Origin: Candidatus Anstonellales archaeon
GTDB taxonomy: Archaea > Micrarchaeota > Micrarchaeia > Anstonellales > CG1-02-47-40
Assembly (NCBI GenBank): GCA_038869735.1
Contig: JAWCQO010000001.1
Coordinates: forward strand, 106,967 to 170,966
Length of the DNA stretch: 64,000 nt
Direction of reading: 5' to 3'
Part shown: positions 17,102-31,520 of the stretch, in pieces
Layout of the letters: the number at the start of each line of letters is the position of its first letter
Position numbering within the stretch: position 1 is the stretch's first letter
Notes under the pieces: model-generated
The model's input: the letters and a program-made list of their open reading frames with translations, nothing else
The model's database searches: none
Told to the model about the DNA's origin: nothing
Position numbers and translations under genes: made by a program

Positions 17102-18886
17102 ATGATGGGTTCAGCTGAACGAGCGATTGGACTTACAAAGTATTTTGTTAGCTTGCCGCGAGCAAGAACGATTGGAGCGTACCTTATTTTGGTTGGTGCT
17201 CTCTTCGGGCTTATAGTTAGCATTTCAACTCAAAAAATTGCAGAAATAGAAATTATAGGAAGTGTCGGGATGGGTGTGTTTCTCATCTCTCTCCCGGCTT
17301 TCCTCTCAGCTTTTACAGTTTATCTAGTGTGTAGGTGGATACCTCTAAAGCGAGTGCTAGTTCTTTCACTTTTTGGAGCAATGAGCTATGGGGTATTTTA
17401 TGTAATAGGGATTTTGCTTTTAGAGAGTGGAGTTTCCTTTGGAGGGGAAGTGATTCTCGTAGGATTTGGGCTTATCTTTGTAATATGGTTTTTGATTGCA
17501 AAGCTTGTGTTTGGTCTTGGAAAGATTTCTTTTGTTTTTGCAACACTCCAGCTCTTTTATAACGCAATATTTCTTATGACTACCCACCTCATCTCCTTTG
17601 ACGAAGGCTGGATGCCGATCATCTTAAAGATGTATTTTTCATCATTACTGTTTTTGATTGCGCTATATTCTCTTTTTTTCGTATTGAATGCGCCTATGAA
17701 GAGAAACATTGGTGTAGATAGTACGCAAGCAATCTCTATGTTTGCAGCTCAATGGCTTGAAGGCGGAAAAGAGCTTGAAGAAACTTTTGAATCTATGGGG
17801 GAAGAAGTTGAGACATTATTGGGGACTATTGTGTTTAAGGGCTCAAAAAAAGAAACGGTTTTCCTGGTGCCGGGAGTGCATTTTGGACCTTTTGGAAATC
17901 TCGGCGGCAGTGAATTTTCAAAGTTGCTTGCAAATAGACTGGAAGGTGAGAACAGAGACGTGTTTGTATTTCATTCTCTCGTTACAAATGACATGAATCC
18001 TGTCTCATCGCGTGAAATTGAGAAGATAATCGCCTGTTTTGAGGGACAATATAAAAAAATGGAATTTTCGCCTGCGGTTGGGAACATTTGTAGAGGACGT
18101 GGCGGAAATTCACATGCCCTCTGCCTCAAAATAAACGACTTTGCATTTGTCGGATTTTCCAGAGCACCTCTTACGACTGAGGATGTAAATTTCGGGATTG
18201 GTAGAAGCTTGCAGATGCTTGCAAATAGATTTGTTAGGGAAGCTGTTTTAGTGGACCAACATAATTCTGAAACAGGAGACATAACTTCGGTTGAGCCGGG
18301 TTCTCACATCCAATTTGAAATGGAAGAGGCGCTTTTGGACGCTCTGGAAAAAAATAAAAGGATGGAGAGATTGGAACTTGGATGCGGTGCACAAAAACTT
18401 GAGTGCAAATCGGTAGGGGGAGGTGGGATAAAAACTGCTCTCTTTGGATTTGGAAAAAAGTTTTTTGCGTTAATTTTGTTAGACTCTAATGGAGTCGTTC
18501 CCTCTTTTAGAGATGAGGTAATAAGAGAGGTAAAAGAATGGGGAAAGAAGAAAAAAATGGAAGTAGAAGCCGAGATTTTTACTACAGATACTCATGAGGT
18601 GAATATTGTTCAGGGAGTCTTGAATCCTGTAGGAAAGAGGCGTGAAGAGGGTGAGGAAGTTATTTCTGCTATTGTTAATTGCCTAGAAGAAGCTAAAAGG
18701 AACATGGAAGGAGTAAGCGCGGGCGTTTCTGTGGACAGATTCACCACAACTGTATTGGGAGCGAAAGTCTCCACTGAAGTAGTTGCAACTATAAGTGCAG
18801 TAATTGCAATCGCAAGGATAGCTATACCTGTGATACTTATAGGCACCGTTATCTTGATTTTATGGAGCCTTACAAAAATTAAGTAA
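17102..18886 (+). CDS. DUF2070 archaeal membrane protein
   Basis: 594 residues: five to seven N-terminal membrane helices (about 20-200), a large soluble domain with the conserved VPGVHFGPFGNLGGS (about 258-272), a second His motif DQHNSET (about 385-391) and a final C-terminal membrane helix. This matches the archaeal DUF2070 family, whose function is unknown; the paired His motifs look like a metal-dependent enzyme site, which is inference. The start ATGATG at 17102 follows GAAGGGG. The glycosyltransferase gene follows about 20 bases later and is probably co-transcribed, hinting at an envelope or glycolipid role. Confidence 0.88.
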   Translation: MMGSAERAIGLTKYFVSLPRARTIGAYLILVGALFGLIVSISTQKIAEIEIIGSVGMGVFLISLPAFLSAFTVYLVCRWIPLKRVLVLSLFGAMSYGVFYVIGILLLESGVSFGGEVILVGFGLIFVIWFLIAKLVFGLGKISFVFATLQLFYNAIFLMTTHLISFDEGWMPIILKMYFSSLLFLIALYSLFFVLNAPMKRNIGVDSTQAISMFAAQWLEGGKELEETFESMGEEVETLLGTIVFKGSKKETVFLVPGVHFGPFGNLGGSEFSKLLANRLEGENRDVFVFHSLVTNDMNPVSSREIEKIIACFEGQYKKMEFSPAVGNICRGRGGNSHALCLKINDFAFVGFSRAPLTTEDVNFGIGRSLQMLANRFVREAVLVDQHNSETGDITSVEPGSHIQFEMEEALLDALEKNKRMERLELGCGAQKLECKSVGGGGIKTALFGFGKKFFALILLDSNGVVPSFRDEVIREVKEWGKKKKMEVEAEIFTTDTHEVNIVQGVLNPVGKRREEGEEVISAIVNCLEEAKRNMEGVSAGVSVDRFTTTVLGAKVSTEVVATISAVIAIARIAIPVILIGTVILILWSLTKIK

Positions 18887-18906
18887 AAGAAGTGAGAGGG
18901 GATTTT

Positions 18907-20034
18907 CTGAAGCTTGGATTTTTTACAGATACTTATCTTCCAAATAGAGACGGCGTAGTTAGGGTTATATTAAACACGAAGGAAGTTATTGAAAGAAAAG
19001 GACATAGAGTATACACGTTTGCACCTTATGGAAATGAAAAAACGAACGTCGATGAAGATAACGACGTATTTTACTATCATTCTGCAAGTTTTTTTCCCTA
19101 TCCAGATTACAGAGTTGCACTATTTCCGTTTTTTGCTTATAAGAGGGCACAGAAGGTTGGAGTGGAGATAGTGCATTCTCACGGCGTTGCAACGATGGGA
19201 ATTGCGGCTTTAAAGACTGCGCGCATGCTTAGGGTTGGGTCGGTTGCAACGTTCCACACTCTTTTGCCAAATGCTGCGCGTTACATAGGTGGAAGCTGGT
19301 TTCTTGAAGGCATAACCAAAAGAGCAATATGGAGATATTTGGAGTGGTATTATAGTCAGTTTGAGCGCGTTATATCTCCAACCAATTATACAAAAAAGAT
19401 CCTTCAAAAGCATGGAATAGAGGCTGTTGTCTTGCCAAGTGGTGTGGATACAGCAAGATTTACACCTAATAAAAAGTTAGGGGAAAGGATAAAAAAGAAA
19501 TGGGGAATTTGTGGCAAGAAAGTTGCTCTTTATCTTGGAAGAATTGCTCGAGAAAAAAGGTTGGAGATTTTTTTTGAGGCTGCAAGCAAAATAAACAAGG
19601 AATCTGAAATCTTTTTTGTTGTTGCAGGGAAGGGACCAGCTTTGGATTACTACAGGGCAATGGCAGAGAGGATGAACATCTCTGGAAAGGTTATTTTCAC
19701 AGGATTTGTTCCTGAGGACCAACTTTCGGCGTATTATAATGCAGCTGACGTGTTCATTATGCCATCATCCTTTGAGACACAGGGTTTAAGTGCTCTGGAA
19801 GCACTTGCTTGTGGGGTTCCGATATGTGTTGAGAGGGATTCTGCCACTGCAGAATTCGTCAAGAATGGAAAAAATGGGGGTTTGTTTTCAGATGCGGAAG
19901 AGTGTGCAGAGAGCATATTAAAGATTTCTACTCAAAAAATCAAGATGAAAGAATTTGCAAGAAAAACTGCGTTGGAATACTCAAACGAAAAAATGGTTGG
20001 AAAGCTCCTCGAGCTTTATAAGCAGCTCATCTGA
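18907..20034 (+). CDS. GT4 family glycosyltransferase, probable CTG start
   Basis: 375 residues of GT-B fold, GT4 family. The N-terminal KLGFFTDTYLPNRDGV is the classic first strand and Gly-rich loop. The C-terminal donor site has LGRIAREKR, then ETQGLSALEALACGVP with the EX7E-type glutamates. Members transfer hexoses to lipids (alpha-mannosyl or glucosyl-diacylglycerol synthases and similar). The start is unusual: a GTG at 18892 has no Shine-Dalgarno, whereas the CTG at 18907 gives the expected N terminus (M-K-L-G-F-F-T-D) and stands 5 bases after GAGGGG. It follows the DUF2070 gene closely. Confidence 0.88.
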   Translation: MKLGFFTDTYLPNRDGVVRVILNTKEVIERKGHRVYTFAPYGNEKTNVDEDNDVFYYHSASFFPYPDYRVALFPFFAYKRAQKVGVEIVHSHGVATMGIAALKTARMLRVGSVATFHTLLPNAARYIGGSWFLEGITKRAIWRYLEWYYSQFERVISPTNYTKKILQKHGIEAVVLPSGVDTARFTPNKKLGERIKKKWGICGKKVALYLGRIAREKRLEIFFEAASKINKESEIFFVVAGKGPALDYYRAMAERMNISGKVIFTGFVPEDQLSAYYNAADVFIMPSSFETQGLSALEALACGVPICVERDSATAEFVKNGKNGGLFSDAEECAESILKISTQKIKMKEFARKTALEYSNEKMVGKLLELYKQLI

Positions 20035-20048
20035 TTAAATACCTCAGA

Positions 20049-22601
20049 TTAGATAATTATTGAATCTATAAATGATGGCAACTGCTCAAGAGATATTAGA
20101 AAGAGTCTCTTTGAAGCAACTTCAAGTTTGATTCTTACTGCAAGTGGAGTTGTAGAGGTGAGTCGCTTAGAAAACTCTTCAAGCACTATTGAATTTTCAA
20201 AAAGGAGGATTGTTGGGTATTCGGAAATGGAGCATAGTGCGCGATAAGCAGATGAATCATCCTCAAAGAAGCAGATAGCGTATTCTCTTCCAGATATAGA
20301 AAATTTTACGTCTGCCTCTTCATTGCTTGTTGGTCTTGAAAATTTGATTGCTTTGGTTATAAGTACATCTCTAACGTGTCTGAATAGAGATAGATTCTTG
20401 AGGCTTCTTTTTGCTTCGGTTTCCCATCTTTTCAGACACCAGAAGCCTAGTACTTCTTTTACCTCGCCAGTACGGTTTTGGATTTGGAGCAAAATGCGCT
20501 CAAGATTGTAATCACCAATGATTATTGGACTGCCGTTATGCTTCAACTTCCTAAACCCGCTTTTGAGGTCTTCAAGTGAAAGTGGCATGTATCGCCATTG
20601 GTACGTTTTATTTACGGTATCAAAGAGCTCCAGTACTTGATCTTTCTTTATTGGAATCTTTATTTGTGATATTGGTGGAAATTCAGGTATATCTATAACA
20701 AGAAGCTGTTTTTCTGGCTTGCGGAGATAGGTGCCTATTGCAAAAAACAGAATAGTCAGCATTCCCATGAAGATGATTAGTGGATTTTCATAAAACTGCT
20801 TTTGAAGTATATACTCGATTTGAATAGATTTTTTAAAGCCGCCGTCGAACTCGAAGGTGAAGTTATGGGTACCGGGTGGAAGATTCGGAACATAATAGAG
20901 AAGAACGGTTGATGGTTGGATTTCTTTCTCAAATTTGCCATCCACCGAGACTTTTAGGCGCTGGAATGGTATTTTCTCCTCTTTGGATGATGTAAAGGAA
21001 AATGAGAAATTCCCGTTTTTAAAGTCTTGATTGGCTACATAGACAGAAAAGTCTTCTACCTCTACCTGCGCCTGAGCGTAAACTCGGTTCGTAGAATCAA
21101 CTACCCGGAGTATGTAAATTCCAGAAGGAAGAGAGGAGTCATAATCAAATGGAAGCGGTGATTGGAGATTGGTTAATCCTTCTTGTACTTGCTCAGATTT
21201 TATTACTTGTCCATCTTTTATTGTCTGAAGGAATAGCTTTCTTTGACCTCCCCCGGATTCTTTAAAATCGAGTATTAAACGAATCTTTTGCCCAGTCAGA
21301 TAGGTTGGCAAGAATGAGCTTCCTCCTTTTACATAGATGTTTGAATTTTGCTTCTTGCTTAATGCTAAATCAACTCGTCGGCTTATCTTTTGTCCGTCTG
21401 GCGATTCGCCTTCAAAGCGTATTATTGAGAAGATTTCTGATGGCAGAAGAGGGGGGGAGTAGATATAAACGGTATCAGAGGTTGAATTCTCGACCATAAG
21501 TTGCACTTCTGTTTTTGCCAAAACATTCTGCCATGCATAATTGGAGATTAGTCGAGAAATGTCCTCAGCTGCGGTTTCGCCGTTTCTTCGCCATCCTCCA
21601 TCGAGTGTTTGGGGTAGGAAGACGAAATAACTCGAGTTTAAGGCGAGTGCTGATATTGACCCATAAATTTTGGTTTTTGCGATCTGAGACGCGATTCGGG
21701 GTGCGACGCTGTATTGTGGGTCGAACAATCGAAAGTCCTCGTCAGATGGTGTCGGACGTTCAAATATAAATGGCAGGGAGGAAAGCAGTTCCTTTGACGA
21801 TACGATTGGAATGCCCTCATCATTAAGAATGCGGTCAAATGGAAGGCCTATATAAATAATTATTATCCCTTTTGAAAGGAGATCCTGATAAAAAAAACTG
21901 CTTTCAAATAATTTAGTGGGAAAATAACCAGTTGGTATTATTAGAACTGAGCGAGGCGGAAGTGACTTAAGTTGCGCATATGTAACATCATTGACGGATA
22001 TTTCGTTGAGAGTTAATAGCTCTTCTAGCTTTGACCTAAAGGTCTGGTAAGTTTCTGCTTGATGGCTCTTTGTTTGAAGAATAAAAACTTGTCTTGGAAG
22101 GGGATTTGGGAAAAATGTTGCAAGAATTTTTGCTGATGAAAGGTCCTTTTGATTATAGGAAATCTCGAAATAGGCTGTGTGAAATTGAGGGGTCTCGCCC
22201 CAATCAAGAATCTGAAAGTCTTTGACTTCGACATCAACCCAGGGAGTATACGGCGCTTTTTGTGGTGGCGGTGGCTGGTTTTGTGAAAATGAAAAGTAGA
22301 AAGCCGCCAAAAGAAGAAAAAAAGCAAATGCAGCTATGGGCAAAAGAATGGTTTTGATGGTGGGTGAAGTTTTAGGAGCTTCTTCTGCTTTTTTTTCATC
22401 TGCCTTTTGCGCAACCGGAACTTTTTTTTGGGGAGTGGAAAGAAAAGACGAAACGCGTTCAATCAGATTTTTTGATAATGGTGGCTTCTTCTGAACAAAT
22501 CTCTTTACATTCTCATATTTCTTTCTTATTGTAAAGATATATGCCTTTTTTGAAATGCGAAATTTGAGCGTTTCTTCATCCACCATAGGACCAGATCCCA
22601 T
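20049..22601 (-). CDS. Two-pass membrane protein with large outer domain (operon with VirB4-like ATPase)
   Basis: 850 residues, not recognised. A basic cytoplasmic N terminus (1-80, Lys/Pro/Glu-rich) is followed by one membrane helix (83-105), about 500 residues of beta-rich outer domain, a second helix (about 608-628) and a ~220-residue cytoplasmic C terminus. The first outer part (SVLIIPTGYFP ... GIIIIYIG) resembles a Rossmann-like or GATase-like fold such as DUF4350; the rest looks like beta-sandwich modules with N-glycosylation sequons. It is the last gene of the five-gene operon. By size and topology it could be the structural spanning part of a membrane machine. ATG at 22601, alternative at 22586. 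Confidence 0.72.
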   Translation of the reverse strand: MGSGPMVDEETLKFRISKKAYIFTIRKKYENVKRFVQKKPPLSKNLIERVSSFLSTPQKKVPVAQKADEKKAEEAPKTSPTIKTILLPIAAFAFFLLLAAFYFSFSQNQPPPPQKAPYTPWVDVEVKDFQILDWGETPQFHTAYFEISYNQKDLSSAKILATFFPNPLPRQVFILQTKSHQAETYQTFRSKLEELLTLNEISVNDVTYAQLKSLPPRSVLIIPTGYFPTKLFESSFFYQDLLSKGIIIIYIGLPFDRILNDEGIPIVSSKELLSSLPFIFERPTPSDEDFRLFDPQYSVAPRIASQIAKTKIYGSISALALNSSYFVFLPQTLDGGWRRNGETAAEDISRLISNYAWQNVLAKTEVQLMVENSTSDTVYIYSPPLLPSEIFSIIRFEGESPDGQKISRRVDLALSKKQNSNIYVKGGSSFLPTYLTGQKIRLILDFKESGGGQRKLFLQTIKDGQVIKSEQVQEGLTNLQSPLPFDYDSSLPSGIYILRVVDSTNRVYAQAQVEVEDFSVYVANQDFKNGNFSFSFTSSKEEKIPFQRLKVSVDGKFEKEIQPSTVLLYYVPNLPPGTHNFTFEFDGGFKKSIQIEYILQKQFYENPLIIFMGMLTILFFAIGTYLRKPEKQLLVIDIPEFPPISQIKIPIKKDQVLELFDTVNKTYQWRYMPLSLEDLKSGFRKLKHNGSPIIIGDYNLERILLQIQNRTGEVKEVLGFWCLKRWETEAKRSLKNLSLFRHVRDVLITKAIKFSRPTSNEEADVKFSISGREYAICFFEDDSSAYRALCSISEYPTILLFENSIVLEEFSKRLTSTTPLAVRIKLEVASKRLFLISLEQLPSFIDSIII

Positions 22602-22627
22602 CAGCCCAAGTTTAAAATTAAATCAAC

Positions 22628-23365
22628 TCATTCCTTGATTGCGAGGTAGCCTTCCAATACAAGCCTGTTTAACACTGCCTCTACCCGACTTTCTGGAACG
22701 CCGTAAGTTTTTGAAAATTCAGTTATGTTTATCTCTGAGTTGTGTTCGTGAATCCAATTTTGTATTTTTGATGCAAGAACTTCGTCAGAAATGGACTGGA
22801 ACTCTGCAAGCTTATTTGCAAGCTCATCTTTTGACACTTTTAGTTCATAGTTTTCCCGCGAAAGGAGAGTATTTGCCTCCTGTAGGTCTCGAACTCTCTT
22901 TTGAAGAGAAATAACCTCTGATTTTAGGCTGTCGTAGAGAGAGTAGAGTTTATCGTAATCGCTAGTAACGTATTCCTCCATTTCAGATAGAGCATTTTCC
23001 AGCATTTGGTATATCTTTCGATTGTCAATGCTATAGTTGGATCCCAACAGCGTAAGAAGATTGAGGAGATACTTTAACATATCAAGTTTTCTTTTTTTTG
23101 GACTCATTCCGGCTGTATAGGTGTAGAGAAGCTCTATTTTGTCTGGATGGAAGTAGGTTAGTGAAAACAAGAATGGGTTTTTGTGGATATCTCTACTCTC
23201 GACGTTTATTCCAATGATGGTTTCGTTTTCTTCTACCAACTTTAAAAACGAAAGTTGAGAAAGTGATTCAAAAACGTCTTTTTTGCTGCCTACCCTTGAA
23301 GCCTCTAAGAATATTCCGCTAACCTTTGGCGGAGTCGTTGCTTTTTGCTGTTTTTGTGGAGGCAG
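22628..23365 (-). CDS. Coiled-coil and winged-helix protein, probable CTG start
   Basis: 245 residues if started at CTG 23365. A TTG at 23239 would give 203 residues but has no Shine-Dalgarno and would discard a well-formed segment (PPKVSGIFLEASRVGSKKD). AGGTGA, 6 bases before the CTG, is formed with the TGA stop of the preceding gene. Domains: an N-terminal alpha/beta part with ETIIGINVES and a strand pair (about 50-95), a long coiled coil (about 125-205) and a C-terminal winged helix (INITEFSKTYGVPESRVEAV...). It has no signal peptide and is probably a cytoplasmic adaptor for the ATPase. Function unknown. Confidence 0.7.
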   Translation of the reverse strand: MPPQKQQKATTPPKVSGIFLEASRVGSKKDVFESLSQLSFLKLVEENETIIGINVESRDIHKNPFLFSLTYFHPDKIELLYTYTAGMSPKKRKLDMLKYLLNLLTLLGSNYSIDNRKIYQMLENALSEMEEYVTSDYDKLYSLYDSLKSEVISLQKRVRDLQEANTLLSRENYELKVSKDELANKLAEFQSISDEVLASKIQNWIHEHNSEINITEFSKTYGVPESRVEAVLNRLVLEGYLAIKE

Positions 23366-23371
23366 ATGATA

Positions 23372-23836
23372 TCACCTTTTTTTCTTTTTGATTTTTTTTG
23401 ATTTAGATTTAGTGGCAAGAATGGCTTGTTTAGACGTCTTTTTCTCTAAAGAAGGCTGCTCAGACAGAGACGGCGGTGGTTGAGGAGTCTCTTCAATTGC
23501 AGGAACGTATGAGGTAAGAGAAAACAGCACAAGAAAAGCTCCGATGAAGATAGATATAATAAAAGTTCCGAGGGACAGTGTCCCGCTAAGAAGAGAGAGA
23601 CCAACAAAGGCAATGAAGATGATGACTGCAAGGGCAATGTACTGAACCAGTGTCTTTTCAAATTTAGTCCTTCTTTTCTTATATTCTTCATACATCTCTT
23701 CGCTCACAATAAGTCTGTTATTTTTTGCGATTCCAAAAAAACGCTTTATTTTTCTTATTGAGCGTATCACTATGTCTTCCTTGACTGGATAGCCAACGCC
23801 TTCATTTCCTGACATTATGCAAATCCCTCTTTCCAT
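23372..23836 (-). CDS. Two-helix membrane protein of the VirB4-like operon
   Basis: 154 residues: a cytoplasmic N terminus (VKEDIVIRSIRKIKRFFGI), a charged helix KRRTKFEKTLVQY, two adjacent membrane helices (about 68-110) and a Pro/Ser/Lys-rich C-terminal tail ending KKIKKKKR. No family recognised. By analogy with small inner-membrane subunits of type IV-like machines it may anchor the ATPase, which is inference. ATG at 23836 has AGAGGTG 9 bases upstream; a second ATG at 23815 is possible. It lies 27 bases after the ATPase gene. Confidence 0.72.
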   Translation of the reverse strand: MERGICIMSGNEGVGYPVKEDIVIRSIRKIKRFFGIAKNNRLIVSEEMYEEYKKRRTKFEKTLVQYIALAVIIFIAFVGLSLLSGTLSLGTFIISIFIGAFLVLFSLTSYVPAIEETPQPPPSLSEQPSLEKKTSKQAILATKSKSKKIKKKKR

Positions 23837-23863
23837 ATCTCAAAACACCTCTTTTATGTGTGT

Positions 23864-25438
23864 CTACTCCTCCAATATAACTTGGGTTATATCTCGTCCA
23901 GTCATCCCAAGTTTTTTGAAATCTGTTTTGGAGAATATATTTATTATAGTTAAGTCGTCGATTCCCATATCTTTGAGAAGGGAAGTTATATTATTTCTTC
24001 CAAGGCCGTAGCGTTCAAGAAGGATAACAAATGAGATCACATCAAGATGGTTGTTTTTCTTTGAAAATAAAGAGACTATTTCTTCTATATGAACTGTGTC
24101 GAGGCCAAAAGACAGCAACTTCTTTTTTAATTCTCCTCTCTCAAATGAGACTACTTTAGCCATAAGCTCATCCCTCCGTTCCTCCTCTGAAAGAGCAGAA
24201 GAGAGATCCAAGAAAAGCTCTTGCAGAGGTTCTTCACCGTCAACGCGCTCCATTATAAATGTCTCTGAAAACTGCATTGTTGTCTGAAAAGCCATATTTA
24301 CTGCGCAGGACCCAAGCCCCAGCTTTGCAATCTCATCTCTCATAAAATCCGAAAAATTGAGAGTGTTTTGCAGATAGTTCAAAAAGCGCTCAAATTTCAC
24401 TCTAAAAATAAATGTGGTCCCAACGTTTGAGAAGATTGCTTCTGAGATATCTGTAGGATTTTGTGAAGCAACAATAAGCCCAAACTGGTATTTTCTTCCT
24501 TCCCGGACAATCATAACTGCATCTGAATTATCGTCCTTTGCAATTTTCCATGCTTCATCAAGCACAACCAAAAGACGCAGGCCAGCCGTTGAGCTCCAAC
24601 CTGACTCACGCATCTTTTCCTTTATGAACTGGAGCATAGATAGAGCAGCTAAGCCTCTGAAGACTTCATCAGGGAGTCCAGATAGGTCCAAATCTACAAG
24701 ACCAGCATTTAAAAGTTGCTCTAAGTTAACGGTTGATTGTTGTGCAAAATAATCTTCGCCTTCGCGAGTAAACTGCTTTATTCGATAGATTGCATTTTCA
24801 AGTTCTGCCGGAAATTCGTATGTTCCTGCTGCAAGCTGATCTTCAAGGATGTGTTGTACATCCCGCAATGTTGGCGGTTGAAGTGGGCGACCTGCACGGT
24901 CACGCTGGACTTTTCTATCAAGCTTAAATCCAGCCTCAACATAAGCTTTTTCTATGGCATTTTCGGTAAGTCTTTTTTGTTCAGGGTAATGACTTATGTC
25001 TGTGAGTATCTCCAACGTTCGGATAATCTGTTTTATCCTATCATTTGGTTTCATTCCGCCCAAATCAAGGAGATTTATATAAGAGCCCTTGCCAAGTGAA
25101 ATTACAATGCCGCCTGTTTGTTTTACCCACTCCTTGTATTCTCCTGCCCAGTCAATTATAAACGCATTGGTTCCCCAGACAAAGCTGGCTCGAGTTAGAA
25201 AAGTTTTTACAAAATAGCTTTTTCCAGAGCCGGTTATTCCAACCACACAGATATGTGGATTAGTGATTCGCTGGAATGTCCAATAAAAAGGAACGTGAAA
25301 AATCTTTGTTCTTCCTATATAAATGGAATTTGTGGGGTCTGCCATGAGGTAATCCTCTGGCGGCTCTGGCGGCCTGACAAAAAAATTGCGCCTAGCTACA
25401 TCGCGATTAAAGACGTGAGATAGTTTTAGCCTTCCCAT
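23864..25438 (-). CDS. VirB4/HerA-like secretion or conjugation ATPase
   Basis: 524 residues. Walker A GITGSGKS (67-74), Walker B LLVVLDEAW (about 289-297) and the sensor-like ASQNP (about 324-328) mark a VirB4/TraC/HerA-FtsK superfamily ATPase. FIIDWAGEY after Walker A is typical of the VirB4/HerA branch. A C-terminal ~130-residue helical extension (VVSFERGELKKK... to VILEE) is less familiar. The usual VirB4 N-terminal domain is missing here and seems to be encoded by the gene just upstream (25449-26258). ATG at 25438 is preceded by AAGGTGG; a GTG three codons upstream is weaker. Confidence 0.85.
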   Translation of the reverse strand: MGRLKLSHVFNRDVARRNFFVRPPEPPEDYLMADPTNSIYIGRTKIFHVPFYWTFQRITNPHICVVGITGSGKSYFVKTFLTRASFVWGTNAFIIDWAGEYKEWVKQTGGIVISLGKGSYINLLDLGGMKPNDRIKQIIRTLEILTDISHYPEQKRLTENAIEKAYVEAGFKLDRKVQRDRAGRPLQPPTLRDVQHILEDQLAAGTYEFPAELENAIYRIKQFTREGEDYFAQQSTVNLEQLLNAGLVDLDLSGLPDEVFRGLAALSMLQFIKEKMRESGWSSTAGLRLLVVLDEAWKIAKDDNSDAVMIVREGRKYQFGLIVASQNPTDISEAIFSNVGTTFIFRVKFERFLNYLQNTLNFSDFMRDEIAKLGLGSCAVNMAFQTTMQFSETFIMERVDGEEPLQELFLDLSSALSEEERRDELMAKVVSFERGELKKKLLSFGLDTVHIEEIVSLFSKKNNHLDVISFVILLERYGLGRNNITSLLKDMGIDDLTIINIFSKTDFKKLGMTGRDITQVILEE

Positions 25439-25448
25439 TTTTACCACC

Positions 25449-26258
25449 TTATGAGAGGCGAGCCTCGAGCTCCTTTTCGTTGGGAGGTATCATGTACTCC
25501 CAATCAAAACATGTTTTCATTTCCTCTCCGGTTAGAACGATTACATCAACGTTTAGTGCGTTTGACACCGTAGCTCTTATTTCGTTTGCCTGAGATTTTA
25601 CTGCAGCAAGTGCCGCTTCCTTTGAGACACCGGTTGCTGTTGTCATTACATAAGCTACGCACCCCATTGGCTTAATACCGCGTGTGAGTTTTGCTATTTG
25701 GTTTTCCCACATCGCAACTTCGCGCTCGTAGCGGTCTATTTTGAGGATGTCAGGCTCAGGTTTGTCGCGTTCTCTGGAGAGTCTAAGCTGAGCCTCTGCA
25801 TATTTCGTCTCCATTTTTTCGCGGAATTCGTTTAAATCTTTTAGATAGATAAGAAGGCAGAATTTGGTAACAAACCGCACTGAGGATATTGCCCGCTCAA
25901 AATATTCTGAGTAAATTATGTTTTCTTCAGGTGTTTTGTCTGTTGTTGACTCGTAGATCCTGACTCCCAAGAACATGGATGCATAGTAAGTTGAGCCGAC
26001 TTTTTTTAAGATAGCATCCTGCTCTGGTGGGATTTCATAGCCTGTATCAGTTATCTGTACTATCCTTGCACCACTAGTCAAGAAAGGGAATAGAACGTAG
26101 CCATACTTGTAGAAAGCTATTGCACCTACCGCACCTAGACCGGCAAATATGCCTCCTATGAGGGAAAGAGGCCCTCCGCCTCCTGTGAATGCGCCTATAA
26201 CTCCAAGCAATCCTATTAAAGCAGAACCGTATCCCATCTGCTTTGTATCAACTATCAT
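25449..26258 (-). CDS. Membrane-anchored VirB4 N-domain-like protein
   Basis: 269 residues: two Gly-rich membrane helices at the N terminus (about 10-55), then a soluble alpha/beta domain. The soluble part (YYASMFLGVRIYES..., a long charged coiled coil about 145-200, then MGCVAYVMTTATGVSKEAALAAV and NVDVIVLTGEEM) has the order of the N-terminal TraC/VirB4 domain that precedes the ATPase core in conjugation systems. It lies 10 bases before the ATPase gene, so VirB4 looks split with an added membrane anchor. ATG at 26258 with GGGGATC upstream. The homology call is my reading of pattern, not a database result. Confidence 0.65.
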   Translation of the reverse strand: MIVDTKQMGYGSALIGLLGVIGAFTGGGGPLSLIGGIFAGLGAVGAIAFYKYGYVLFPFLTSGARIVQITDTGYEIPPEQDAILKKVGSTYYASMFLGVRIYESTTDKTPEENIIYSEYFERAISSVRFVTKFCLLIYLKDLNEFREKMETKYAEAQLRLSRERDKPEPDILKIDRYEREVAMWENQIAKLTRGIKPMGCVAYVMTTATGVSKEAALAAVKSQANEIRATVSNALNVDVIVLTGEEMKTCFDWEYMIPPNEKELEARLS

Positions 26259-29587: not shown

Positions 29588-29730
29588 GCATCCGTAGTCT
29601 AGCCTGGTAGGATCCGAGCTTCCCAAGAAACTCCGACAAAAACAAATAGTATGGATAGTTTGGGTTTTCGGAAGAAGCTTGAGACCCGGGTTCAAATGGA
29701 GTAAATTCTCCGGAAATCCCGGCGGATGCA
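29588..29730 (+). tRNA. tRNA-Gly (CCC) with two introns
   Basis: GCATCCG/CGGATGC acceptor stem. The anticodon stem CGAGC/GCTTG is interrupted after A37: an intron of about 50 bases at 29626-29675 lies at the canonical 37/38 site, with CTTCC pairing to GGAAG next to it. The anticodon is CCC (29622-29624). A second insert of about 20 bases (near 29697-29716) interrupts the T-loop TTCAAAT between CCGGG and CCCGG; it folds as GGAG/CTCC (29698-29701 with 29708-29711). Spliced, the tRNA is a normal glycine tRNA, completing the set of three Gly isoacceptors within 1.5 kb. Confidence 0.9.
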
Positions 29731-29750
29731 CTTTATTACGGAGATGTTCT

Positions 29751-31520
29751 ATGAAAATTAAGGATTTAGTAACCCTGTTTTTTCTCTTTCTTCTGCTTTA
29801 TCCACATTGCCCGGAGGGTTCGTCGCGAGTTATTGTCCCTGCTGTTTTGGGGGATTCGGAGAAAGGAGGGCTTGCCGAATTCACGGTGCAAATCAAGAAT
29901 GGAAGCGGGAAAGTTTATACTGCAGTAAGCCCAAAGGTAGATGTAACGGTTCAGCTGTCTGAAGAAATTGCAAGCTTTGTAGGTTTTAAATATCTGAATT
30001 TAAGCCAAGAGGAATGTGACGTCTTTTTCACAATTAAGGAAGAGGAGCTTGGAGCAAACTCAATAAATGGAATGTCTGGTGGTGCAGGAATGGCTCTTGG
30101 AGTTATAGCTGCTGCAACAAATAGGACTATCGGGAAGGGTATTGCAATAACAGGGACAATTGAGCCAGACGGTAGCATTGGTTCAGTGAGTGGGATTATT
30201 GAAAAAGCAGAGGCCGCACGGAGGGGGGGACTGGTGTACCTCATTGCCCCCAAGAGAAGTTTTTTTGAGACACTATTATTTAGTACCGTGAATACGAGTA
30301 TACGAATTATTGAAGCGGCTAATATAGATGAGGTAGTCCAGATAGCACTATTTGGAAAAATAGAGAAAAACGAGAGTAGGCTGAACGTAGAACGATTACC
30401 AGTAAACATCAGCGAAAACGATATAGGTAAGAGAAGGGATGCCGTCAAACTGCTTGCAAAGGAGATGCTGGTCGAGAATTTTGACGTCGAACTAAATGAG
30501 AAGACAAAAGAATATTTCAGGATAAGAAAAGAAAATGCGGAGACTCTCTTTGAAAAAGGTTATTATTACAGCTCTGCAAATGAGGCCTTTTTATTATGGA
30601 TCGACCTAGAGTTTCTAAAACTTCTTGAAGAAGGGAGGGACATTGCATGGAGTGCGACTCGTATTGAGGAGTGCTTATCCAAGCTTGAATCAAAGAGCAT
30701 CTCTCCAACTGAGGTTAACTGGGAGTTTTATGTGGGATCCAAACTTCGTGAGCGATGGAGCAAAAAAAAGATTTCTGACACATTAAATAAAACACCGCGA
30801 GTTTCAGAGGAAAGGGGCTATCTTTTGAGAGAGTCGCTTTACTCATTTGGATGGTGCAGAGTATCAAATAGGCTCGCTGATATGGCAATTAGCTATGAAC
30901 AAAGTAGTAGTAGAATAGACGAAAACAGCTTTAAGCAGATGGCAGCTGATAAGATTTATGTAGCAAAAAACCTAGTTGGAAAAGGAGGGATAGTAGATGA
31001 AGAAGCTCTATGGAGACTGGAAAATGCTGAAATACTTTATGAAGATGGAGAATACCTGGCATCCATTTTTGATTCTACTTATGTATATGCCATACACAGT
31101 GCACGTCTAGAAGCATTAAAGACTGCTCCTGAGGAACTTGAAAAGAAGGTGCTTGATTTTCTGAAATGGGAGTATAATGGAACATGGGCAGGTGCATACG
31201 CTTCTCATGGAAAATATCTCTACGAAGCGGACAATAAGGCAAACCTTATTATTGCTTATTACTCTCTTAGGTTTGCATCTGAGCTTGAGAAAGCTACCAA
31301 TGAGATTGAGAGAAAAATTTTGGACTTGAAAAAAGAAAATTTGAAAAATAAAAATGATAGGCTAGAGGTAGAAGAAAAGAGGGAGGGGGTAGAACAAAGT
31401 TTTTATAGCAAAATGCGCGAAGTCCTGATTATAGGTGCCGTTTTGGCTTTAGCGGCATTGTTGGTCATGTTCCTTCTGTTAAGATTCAGAAAGAGGAAAA
31501 AAGGGAAGAGAAAGATTTAG
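29751..31520 (+). CDS. Exported, membrane-anchored Lon-like (S16) serine protease
   Basis: 589 residues: signal peptide (about 1-24), Lon-type proteolytic domain (about 40-220), a long helical region (about 240-540) and a C-terminal membrane helix with a basic tail (RKRKKGKRK). The Ser-Lys dyad of Lon is present: Ser109 in NGMSGGAGMA and Lys152 in SGIIEKAEAA. No AAA+ domain is attached, so this is an ATP-independent protease acting outside the membrane, like the predicted archaeal serine proteases of COG1750. ATG at 29751 has GGAGAT 5 bases upstream; the upstream open frame lies in the tRNA. Its stop overlaps aRF1 by four bases. Confidence 0.87.
   Translation: MKIKDLVTLFFLFLLLYPHCPEGSSRVIVPAVLGDSEKGGLAEFTVQIKNGSGKVYTAVSPKVDVTVQLSEEIASFVGFKYLNLSQEECDVFFTIKEEELGANSINGMSGGAGMALGVIAAATNRTIGKGIAITGTIEPDGSIGSVSGIIEKAEAARRGGLVYLIAPKRSFFETLLFSTVNTSIRIIEAANIDEVVQIALFGKIEKNESRLNVERLPVNISENDIGKRRDAVKLLAKEMLVENFDVELNEKTKEYFRIRKENAETLFEKGYYYSSANEAFLLWIDLEFLKLLEEGRDIAWSATRIEECLSKLESKSISPTEVNWEFYVGSKLRERWSKKKISDTLNKTPRVSEERGYLLRESLYSFGWCRVSNRLADMAISYEQSSSRIDENSFKQMAADKIYVAKNLVGKGGIVDEEALWRLENAEILYEDGEYLASIFDSTYVYAIHSARLEALKTAPEELEKKVLDFLKWEYNGTWAGAYASHGKYLYEADNKANLIIAYYSLRFASELEKATNEIERKILDLKKENLKNKNDRLEVEEKREGVEQSFYSKMREVLIIGAVLALAALLVMFLLLRFRKRKKGKRKI

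Follow-up and report, generated by a model that had tools for sequence, protein, structure and literature searches.

A five-gene operon around a split VirB4-type ATPase as the candidate core of a type IV secretion-like machine in Micrarchaeota

The ways in which DPANN archaea and their hosts exchange material are, to our knowledge, still an open question. Some Micrarchaeota are reported to interact physically with Thermoplasmatales (PMC5864196). The window analysed here, a 64,000-nucleotide stretch of the very small genome of a Candidatus Anstonellales archaeon (contig JAWCQO010000001.1, positions 106,967 to 170,966), carries five genes (g1 to g5) around a VirB4-like P-loop ATPase, and the question that this locus raises is what machine they encode. 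An initial annotation, made from the letters alone, had proposed that they form a system of the lineage for secretion or surface assembly, borne on the chromosome, and not a mobile element. Here we report that the five genes keep their order across related genomes, that the ATPase is of the VirB4 type, and that the operon co-occurs with families of VirB2-like pilins and VirB6-like membrane proteins. In our judgement, the operon is fairly likely to encode the ATP-driven membrane core of a chromosomal machine of Micrarchaeota that resembles a type IV secretion system (T4SS) and would move DNA through the cell membrane.

The five minus-strand genes are intact at 20049–26258 of the window, the terminal stop being the sole stop codon in each frame. 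The gaps between them, recomputed from g1 to g5 as 10, 27, 6 and 26 bases, agree with the 6 to 27 bases first given. The start codons are ATG for g1 (26258), g2 (25438), g3 (23836) and g5 (22601), and CTG for g4 (23365); the CTG was chosen over the mechanical TTG start at 23239 because homologues keep residues upstream of the TTG. The features, in window positions, are as follows.

25449..26258, minus strand: g1, membrane-anchored VirB4-N-like protein of 269 residues; two N-terminal helices, then a match to part of the VirB4 N-terminal domain in the structure model
23864..25438, minus strand: g2, VirB4/CedB-type P-loop ATPase without an N-domain of its own, 524 residues; Pfam and NCBIfam models
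25217..25240, minus strand: Walker A of g2, GITGSGKS, residues 67–74; g2 alignment
24554..24571, minus strand: Walker B of g2, LVVLDE, residues 290–295; V292, D294 and E295 invariant in the g2 alignment
23867..24196, minus strand: C-terminal tail domain of g2, approximately residues 415–524; a second copy forms its own small gene in other families
23372..23836, minus strand: g3, membrane protein with a basic tail, 154 residues; alignment, zinc-ribbon-like cysteines lost in the window copy
22628..23365, minus strand: g4, N-terminal domain, coiled coil and C-terminal winged-helix-like end, 245 residues; alignment, CTG start
20049..22601, minus strand: g5, surface protein of 850 residues; AF2 model, fold searches and profile

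A scan of genomes yielded 39 related loci, 31 in records titled Micrarchaeota and the other eight in records titled archaeon, uncultured archaeon, Woesearchaeota, Euryarchaeota, ainarchaeum or Burarchaeum. With a profile of each protein, g1–g2–g3–g4–g5 were found in this order on one strand at 29 of the 39 loci; nine of the remaining ten end at a contig edge, and one (L021) has no g1 match in the 1.7 kb upstream of g2. Conservation of the gene order had been set beforehand as a check, and because the order recurs at 29 loci we consider the operon to be beyond chance. Genome counts in this study cover the window's phylum or its relatives, and the listed rows all belong to the same class. The g2 profile (E 1e-60) finds its protein in 173 of 196 phylum genomes and in 86 of the 93 high-quality ones, a wider draw at 1e-40 gives 247 of 295 genomes, again with all listed rows of the same class, and the g5 profile reaches 106 of 116 phylum genomes. 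Among the 20 listed genomes without g2, 13 lie in families f15, f17, f19, f20 and f23; the other seven are spread over f11 and f12, most of whose genomes do have g2. A presence in 173 of 196 genomes is not patchy, and a mobile element was therefore rejected; the same count supports the chromosomal lineage system of the initial annotation.

g2 is the sole operon protein to exceed a Pfam cut-off (AAA_10, 2.3e-13; DUF87, 6.6e-12; P-loop_TraG, 3.2e-10), as expected of the HerA/VirB4-type ATPase without an N-domain that had been predicted. All 31 rows of its alignment match the CedB (best 1.6e-27), CD1110-VirB4 (2.9e-25), CedD and VirB4_plasma models, and the best HerA model for the alignment (2.7e-16) stands below the CedD, CedB, VirB4_plasma, TraC and CD1110 models of NCBIfam. 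The profile check of the ATPase type accordingly places CedB and CD1110-VirB4 ahead of HerA, with VirB4_CagE behind. The curated cut-offs of CedB (72.7 of 700 bits), CedD (72.8 of 600 bits) and HerA (39.1 of 970 bits) are all missed by g2, as is every curated VirB4 cut-off, and no protein of the window's own genome exceeds the curated CedB cut-off. In a small tree, g2 groups with VirB4/TraC (support 88/93); the tree contains 19 of 24 collected ATPases and no canonical HerA, four rows lacking a Walker B by pattern and the ATPase of a giant surface protein having been dropped. By the NCBIfam ranking and the tree, and for g1 by its structure model, the operon encodes a VirB4-type ATPase split between g1 and g2.

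In the g1 model, a helical hairpin at the N-terminus is followed by a VirB4-N-like domain, in line with the membrane-anchored VirB4-N-like protein first described. Its best Foldseek match and its best VIA match are both R388 type IV secretion entries, over a residue range that entries titled TrwK/VirB4 also show. Profile–profile comparison of g1 with the PrgI–VirB4N protein of family f17 or with the VirB4 N-domain found no link, with templates of two sequences each. In the absence of a sequence-profile link, the identity of g1 therefore rests on fold and gene position. The hairpin of the g1 model may be VirB3-like; the only PrgI match was that of the f17 protein, at 26.0 of 27 bits. Matches of g1 to GPS2_interact (9 of 36 members) and to coiled-coil PDB entries were taken as coiled-coil resemblance. 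Among the 120 listed of 298 g1 relatives, the only names are hypothetical or uncharacterised protein, and most are unnamed.

Candidate partners of this ATPase came to light in other genomes. In the two f20 genomes G072 and G074, a polytopic membrane gene precedes g1–g2, and upstream of it lies a small two-helix gene (104 residues in L077) that matches TrbC/VirB2 at 1.8e-5 (25.3 bits, cut-off 27.9). A profile of the polytopic family, built from these two genomes only, recovers the family at E 1e-4 in 99 of 106 phylum genomes, and frequently many times per genome; the window's own genome has members at 13 places (best 8.3e-17), including six on contig C4, five on C5 and one on C2 beside a pilin-like gene. 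All four f16 loci examined (L117–L120) join everything in one run: pilin-like genes, six VirB6-like genes, two g1 copies, g2, a tail gene, g3, g4 and g5. A pilin-like gene lies in the short flanks, mostly directly upstream, at 24 of 30 polytopic-family loci. Pfam T4SS_pilin recognises 24 of 28 pilin-like proteins (best 5.4e-7), and TrbC/VirB2 recognises 14 of them (best 1.8e-5). In the PDB, their profile best matches TrwL (E 0.008), which we take to be the VirB2 pilin of R388; a single f16 pilin gave only chance-level PDB matches (best 0.12). A VirB2-like pilin is thus encoded with the system, as indicated by the T4SS_pilin and TrbC matches, by adjacency in f16 and f20, and, weakly, by the copy on another contig of the own genome. 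A profile scan found no pilin-like or VirB6-like gene in the 64-kb window, so the earlier statement that no pilin is nearby holds for the window itself and fails for the genome, which has both kinds of gene elsewhere, and for the four f16 loci examined, where they stand beside the operon.

Six positions of the polytopic family (P, G, R, R, G and P) are invariant. Its profile found nothing of note in the PDB (best 0.047), and profile–profile comparison with the f17 polytopic protein gave no link, with templates of two sequences each. The label VirB6-like therefore rests on topology, gene order and the common motif.

The families are present or absent together almost always. g2 and the VirB6-like family occur together in 98 of 106 genomes and are both missing from seven, and the one exception (G071) has the VirB6-like family only; g2 and g5 are both present in 106 of 116 genomes and both absent from ten. 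The seven genomes without the polytopic family (G036, G058, G061, G068, G069, G076 and G096) are the same seven of 102 in which the pilin profile finds nothing (E 1e-3), and within that set g2 is missing in those seven and G071. They serve as a negative control, because matches due to membrane composition alone would be expected there as well.

The remaining partners, g3 to g5, are undescribed, and models, alignments and domain matches bore out the anatomy that the initial annotation had given for all five proteins. g3 has the two hydrophobic stretches and basic tail foreseen for it; a hydropathy scan of four f16 homologues found one stretch in three and two in one. Many homologues have a set of four cysteines (CxxC...CxxC), lost in the window copy, and 5 of 28 members have weak matches to DUF2116, a 'probable treble clef' (best 0.0016); a reading of g3 as VirB3 was dropped in favour of the cysteine ribbon and membrane stretch seen in the alignment. 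For g4, the alignment confirmed a coiled coil and a winged-helix-like end, and its matches to EAP30/Vps36 of ESCRT-II (19 of 29 members, best 1.2e-6) were taken as winged-helix resemblance. g5 comprises a basic N-terminal tail, a predicted membrane-spanning helix (82–106), an outer domain (approximately 118–600), a second such helix (607–625) and a C-terminal domain (approximately 650–850), which matches the predicted two-pass protein, the outer domain measuring about 480 residues rather than 500. In the AF2 model (pLDDT 83.9), fold searches describe the outer domain as Ig-like plus Rossmann-like; its resemblances to complement, alpha-2-macroglobulin, fibronectin and glycoside hydrolase domains were taken as common folds, and no function was assigned from them.

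How these parts would work together can be proposed as follows. g1, as a VirB3-like hairpin joined to part of a VirB4 N-domain, would dock the g2 ATPase ring at the membrane, and the VirB6-like proteins, encoded elsewhere in the genome, would form a pore fed by the g1–g2 ring. The VirB2-like pilins may form a short filament, g3 and g4 could couple ring and substrate, and the outer domain of g5 might sense or grip something outside. Such a machine would probably carry DNA or protein through the membrane of the cell, and a host cell may be the source or the destination. As to cargo and direction, we favour DNA uptake, as in the archaeal Ced and Ted systems, since this chromosomal machine is near-universal in its lineage and no VirD4-type coupling protein was found in the own genome. 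A bolder version, a near phylum-wide DNA-uptake or host-tapping organelle with a split anchored VirB4, VirB6-like pore arrays, VirB2-like pili and g5 as outer receptor, is a possibility that we put forward tentatively.

Several observations weigh against a DNA-moving T4SS-like machine. For g2, the VirB4_CagE model ranks under HerA models, a PDB sequence search places HerA entries above the VirB4 entry, and the tree was made without canonical HerA and without 5 of the 24 collected rows. For g1, Foldseek gave no match at E 0.001, with TM-scores of 0.27–0.28 and a VIA root-mean-square deviation of 5.9, and sequence-profile searches found no link to VirB4 N-domains. Four pilins scanned singly all fall under the Pfam cut-offs, the pilin-like protein of the own genome (C2) reaches only E 0.013, and the VirB6-like family could be linked by sequence neither to the f17 polytopic protein nor to a solved VirB6 nor to a Pfam or NCBIfam model. 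The f20 operon has neither g3 nor g4, and its g2 and g5-like genes overlap. The genomes are related, and the co-occurrence counts are not independent; the pilin profile includes some of the searched genomes, which makes presence there partly a matter of construction, and absence not. Finally, both the choice of DNA over protein as cargo and the direction of transfer are inferred.

It is on the cargo that the most serious rival differs. The same parts could make a T4SS-like machine that delivers proteins (effectors or adhesins) to the surface or the interior of a host cell, and we judge this somewhat improbable. Nanohaloarchaeal VirB4/TraG proteins have been proposed to secrete effectors into hosts (PMC10266531), PrgI/VirB3 and virB6 of Patescibacteria are reported to be essential for epibiont growth (PMC12102498), and the window's own genome encodes a giant surface protein with an ATPase-like end; against this, no effector or secretion signal was seen, although no search was aimed at one, and among archaeal models g2 is best matched by CedB and CedD, both ATPases of DNA import. 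A pilus or surface-assembly machine, in which the ATPase assembles VirB2-like adhesion filaments and moves no cargo, would account for the pilin-like families that co-occur with g2 and adjoin it in f16, and for the Ig-like outer domain of g5, which is typical of adhesive proteins. We consider it unlikely, given that the multi-copy VirB6-like family, present at 13 places of the own genome, points to pores more than to a simple filament, and that type IV pilus-type ATPases (T2SSE) are already present in 102 of 102 genomes. A membrane-tethered DNA translocase serving the cell's own segregation or repair, HerA- or FtsK-like and with unrelated neighbours, fits the HerA/FtsK superfamily membership of g2, the HerA entries that lead its PDB sequence search and the winged-helix-like end of g4, but is highly improbable in view of the absence of NurA from the own genome and its presence in only 51 of 146 phylum genomes, the VirB4/TraC placement of g2, its position next to genes for pilin-like and VirB6-like proteins in f16 and f20, and the existence of lineages without g2. 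A HerA–NurA repair operon in particular, the grouping that the initial annotation had named as its counter-case, was rejected on the NurA counts and on the VirB4/TraC branch of the tree made without canonical HerA, even though HerA entries lead the PDB sequence search for g2 and HerA models outrank VirB4_CagE; around the NurA loci L121–L128, the short flanks held no P-loop ATPase frame usable as a HerA outgroup.

For a VirD4-type coupling protein, PF02534, the only model used, found none in the own genome, in agreement with the initial remark that no VirD4 gene lies nearby, and one in 102 phylum genomes (E 9.4e-5). Having no coupling protein by this model, the system is therefore filed as T4SS-like and not as a T4SS member.

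The closest systems described so far are Ced and Ted, both domesticated T4SS derivatives that import DNA (PMC9905601), and the T4SS of Patescibacteria. The Ced system of Sulfolobales (CedA, CedA1, CedA2, CedB and CedD), which exchanges chromosomal DNA, likewise has VirB4-type ATPases with the N-domain divided between proteins, a VirB6-like membrane protein, a VirB2-like pilin and no outer-membrane parts (PMC11868833, PMC9905601). In the present operon, by contrast, the ATPase lacks an N-domain, which is encoded apart as a membrane protein, and counterparts of g3, g4 and g5 are not mentioned for Ced in the available parts of those papers. Pfam and NCBIfam scans gave no relevant match for the polytopic proteins, and the pilins match generic T4SS pilin models. 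Ted of Thermoproteales (TedA, TedB and TedC) unites VirB6-, VirB4- and VirB2-like genes in one region (PMC9905601), comparable to f16, but is described with one VirB6-like gene where four f16 loci have six in a row, and the split VirB4 and three extra partners distinguish the present system. The T4SS of Patescibacteria (MPF-FATA type) resembles it in that reduced genomes widely keep VirB4, VirB3/PrgI, VirB6 and VirB2-like proteins, but differs in that VirB4 is described there as one protein (PMC12102498). The nanohaloarchaeal giant VirB4/TraG proteins (SPEARE) are also membrane VirB4-type ATPases of DPANN (PMC10266531), but there the ATPase domain lies inside a giant surface protein, whereas here it is a separate gene of a five-gene operon.

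Family f17, which lacks g2, has a more classical T4SS-like cluster (L076:4052-12390 and, in part, L079:1738-8032) with a VirB2-like pilin, a polytopic protein, a PrgI-like plus VirB4-N protein, a VirB4 of 756–762 residues and a HerA-like ATPase. The L076 pilin exceeds the Pfam cut-off (37.8 of 27.9 bits), the PrgI-like protein reaches 26.0 of 27 bits, and a search with the VirB4 returns a plasmid-borne conjugation ATPase of the CD1110 type at 2e-68; with its PrgI-like protein and full VirB4, the cluster looks closer to the Patescibacteria type. CedB/CedD and VirB4 are reported to replace each other in Crenarchaea (PMC11868833), and by analogy the split system and the canonical f17 system, known from two loci and a G162 fragment, may do so here.

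Further observations concern variants and surroundings of the operon. A second copy of the ATPase tail domain, as a gene for approximately 100 residues, stands between g2 and g3 at L012–L017, L019, L020, L035–L037, L042 and L117–L120, and two g1 copies precede one ATPase at L031, L035–L037 and L117–L120. The g2 frame is in pieces in the metagenome loci L018:3930-5501 and L041:969-2777, from sequence error or decay. A second set in the own genome (C5, L004:9680-12663) has g1-, g2- and g4-like genes, its ATPase being 45–46% identical to g2. Such second ATPase sets are frequent in the window's order, and the own genome also has an unlinked g5 paralogue on C6; second ATPase and unlinked paralogue occur together in 26 of the 32 genomes with either (five with the ATPase only, one with the paralogue only, 84 of 116 with neither), according to counts taken by hand from tables; gene fragments could inflate these counts. 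Orphan g5 paralogues pair with a surface protein, g6, at L049:5352-8755, L050:4139-7517 and L051:3799-7079; g6 recurs in the f20 operon (hhalign probability 96.5), which links the two, and g6 profiles did not reach the f17 surface proteins. A surface protein of SPEARE build, at least 3271 residues long and running off the contig start, is encoded on C6 of the own genome (L129:1-9813, plus strand). Its outer part is repetitive, a hydrophobic helix lies close to the C-terminus, and the protein ends in a domain that resembles a P-loop ATPase (Walker A GASGSGKT; match to g2 at E 1.2e-4). Adjoining the operon are a GT4-type glycosyltransferase (window 18892–20034), relatives of which lie near it on either side at 18 of the 39 loci, and a DUF2070 membrane protein (17102–18886); window 29679–31520 encodes a protein with a Lon-type (S16) protease domain match.

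A literature search on VirB4, HerA and secretion in Micrarchaeota, and on Ced, VirB and T4SS in DPANN and archaea at large, found no description of this system in titles and abstract openings, subscription journals and preprints lying outside its scope. The T4SS-like kind of machine is known, as Ced and Ted illustrate; the split, membrane-anchored VirB4 and the undescribed partners g3 to g5 set the present operon apart. If our interpretation is correct, a further lineage evolved or retained the domesticated-T4SS solution reported for Ced and Ted, splitting VirB4 and adding three undescribed partners. In the bolder version, the machine would offer reduced, host-associated archaea a route for taking nucleic acids or other cargo from their hosts, and would be the counterpart, in the other domain, of the Patescibacterial type IV system. 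A near-universal chromosomal T4SS-like machine in Micrarchaeota would also provide a set of genes that can be tested in co-cultures.

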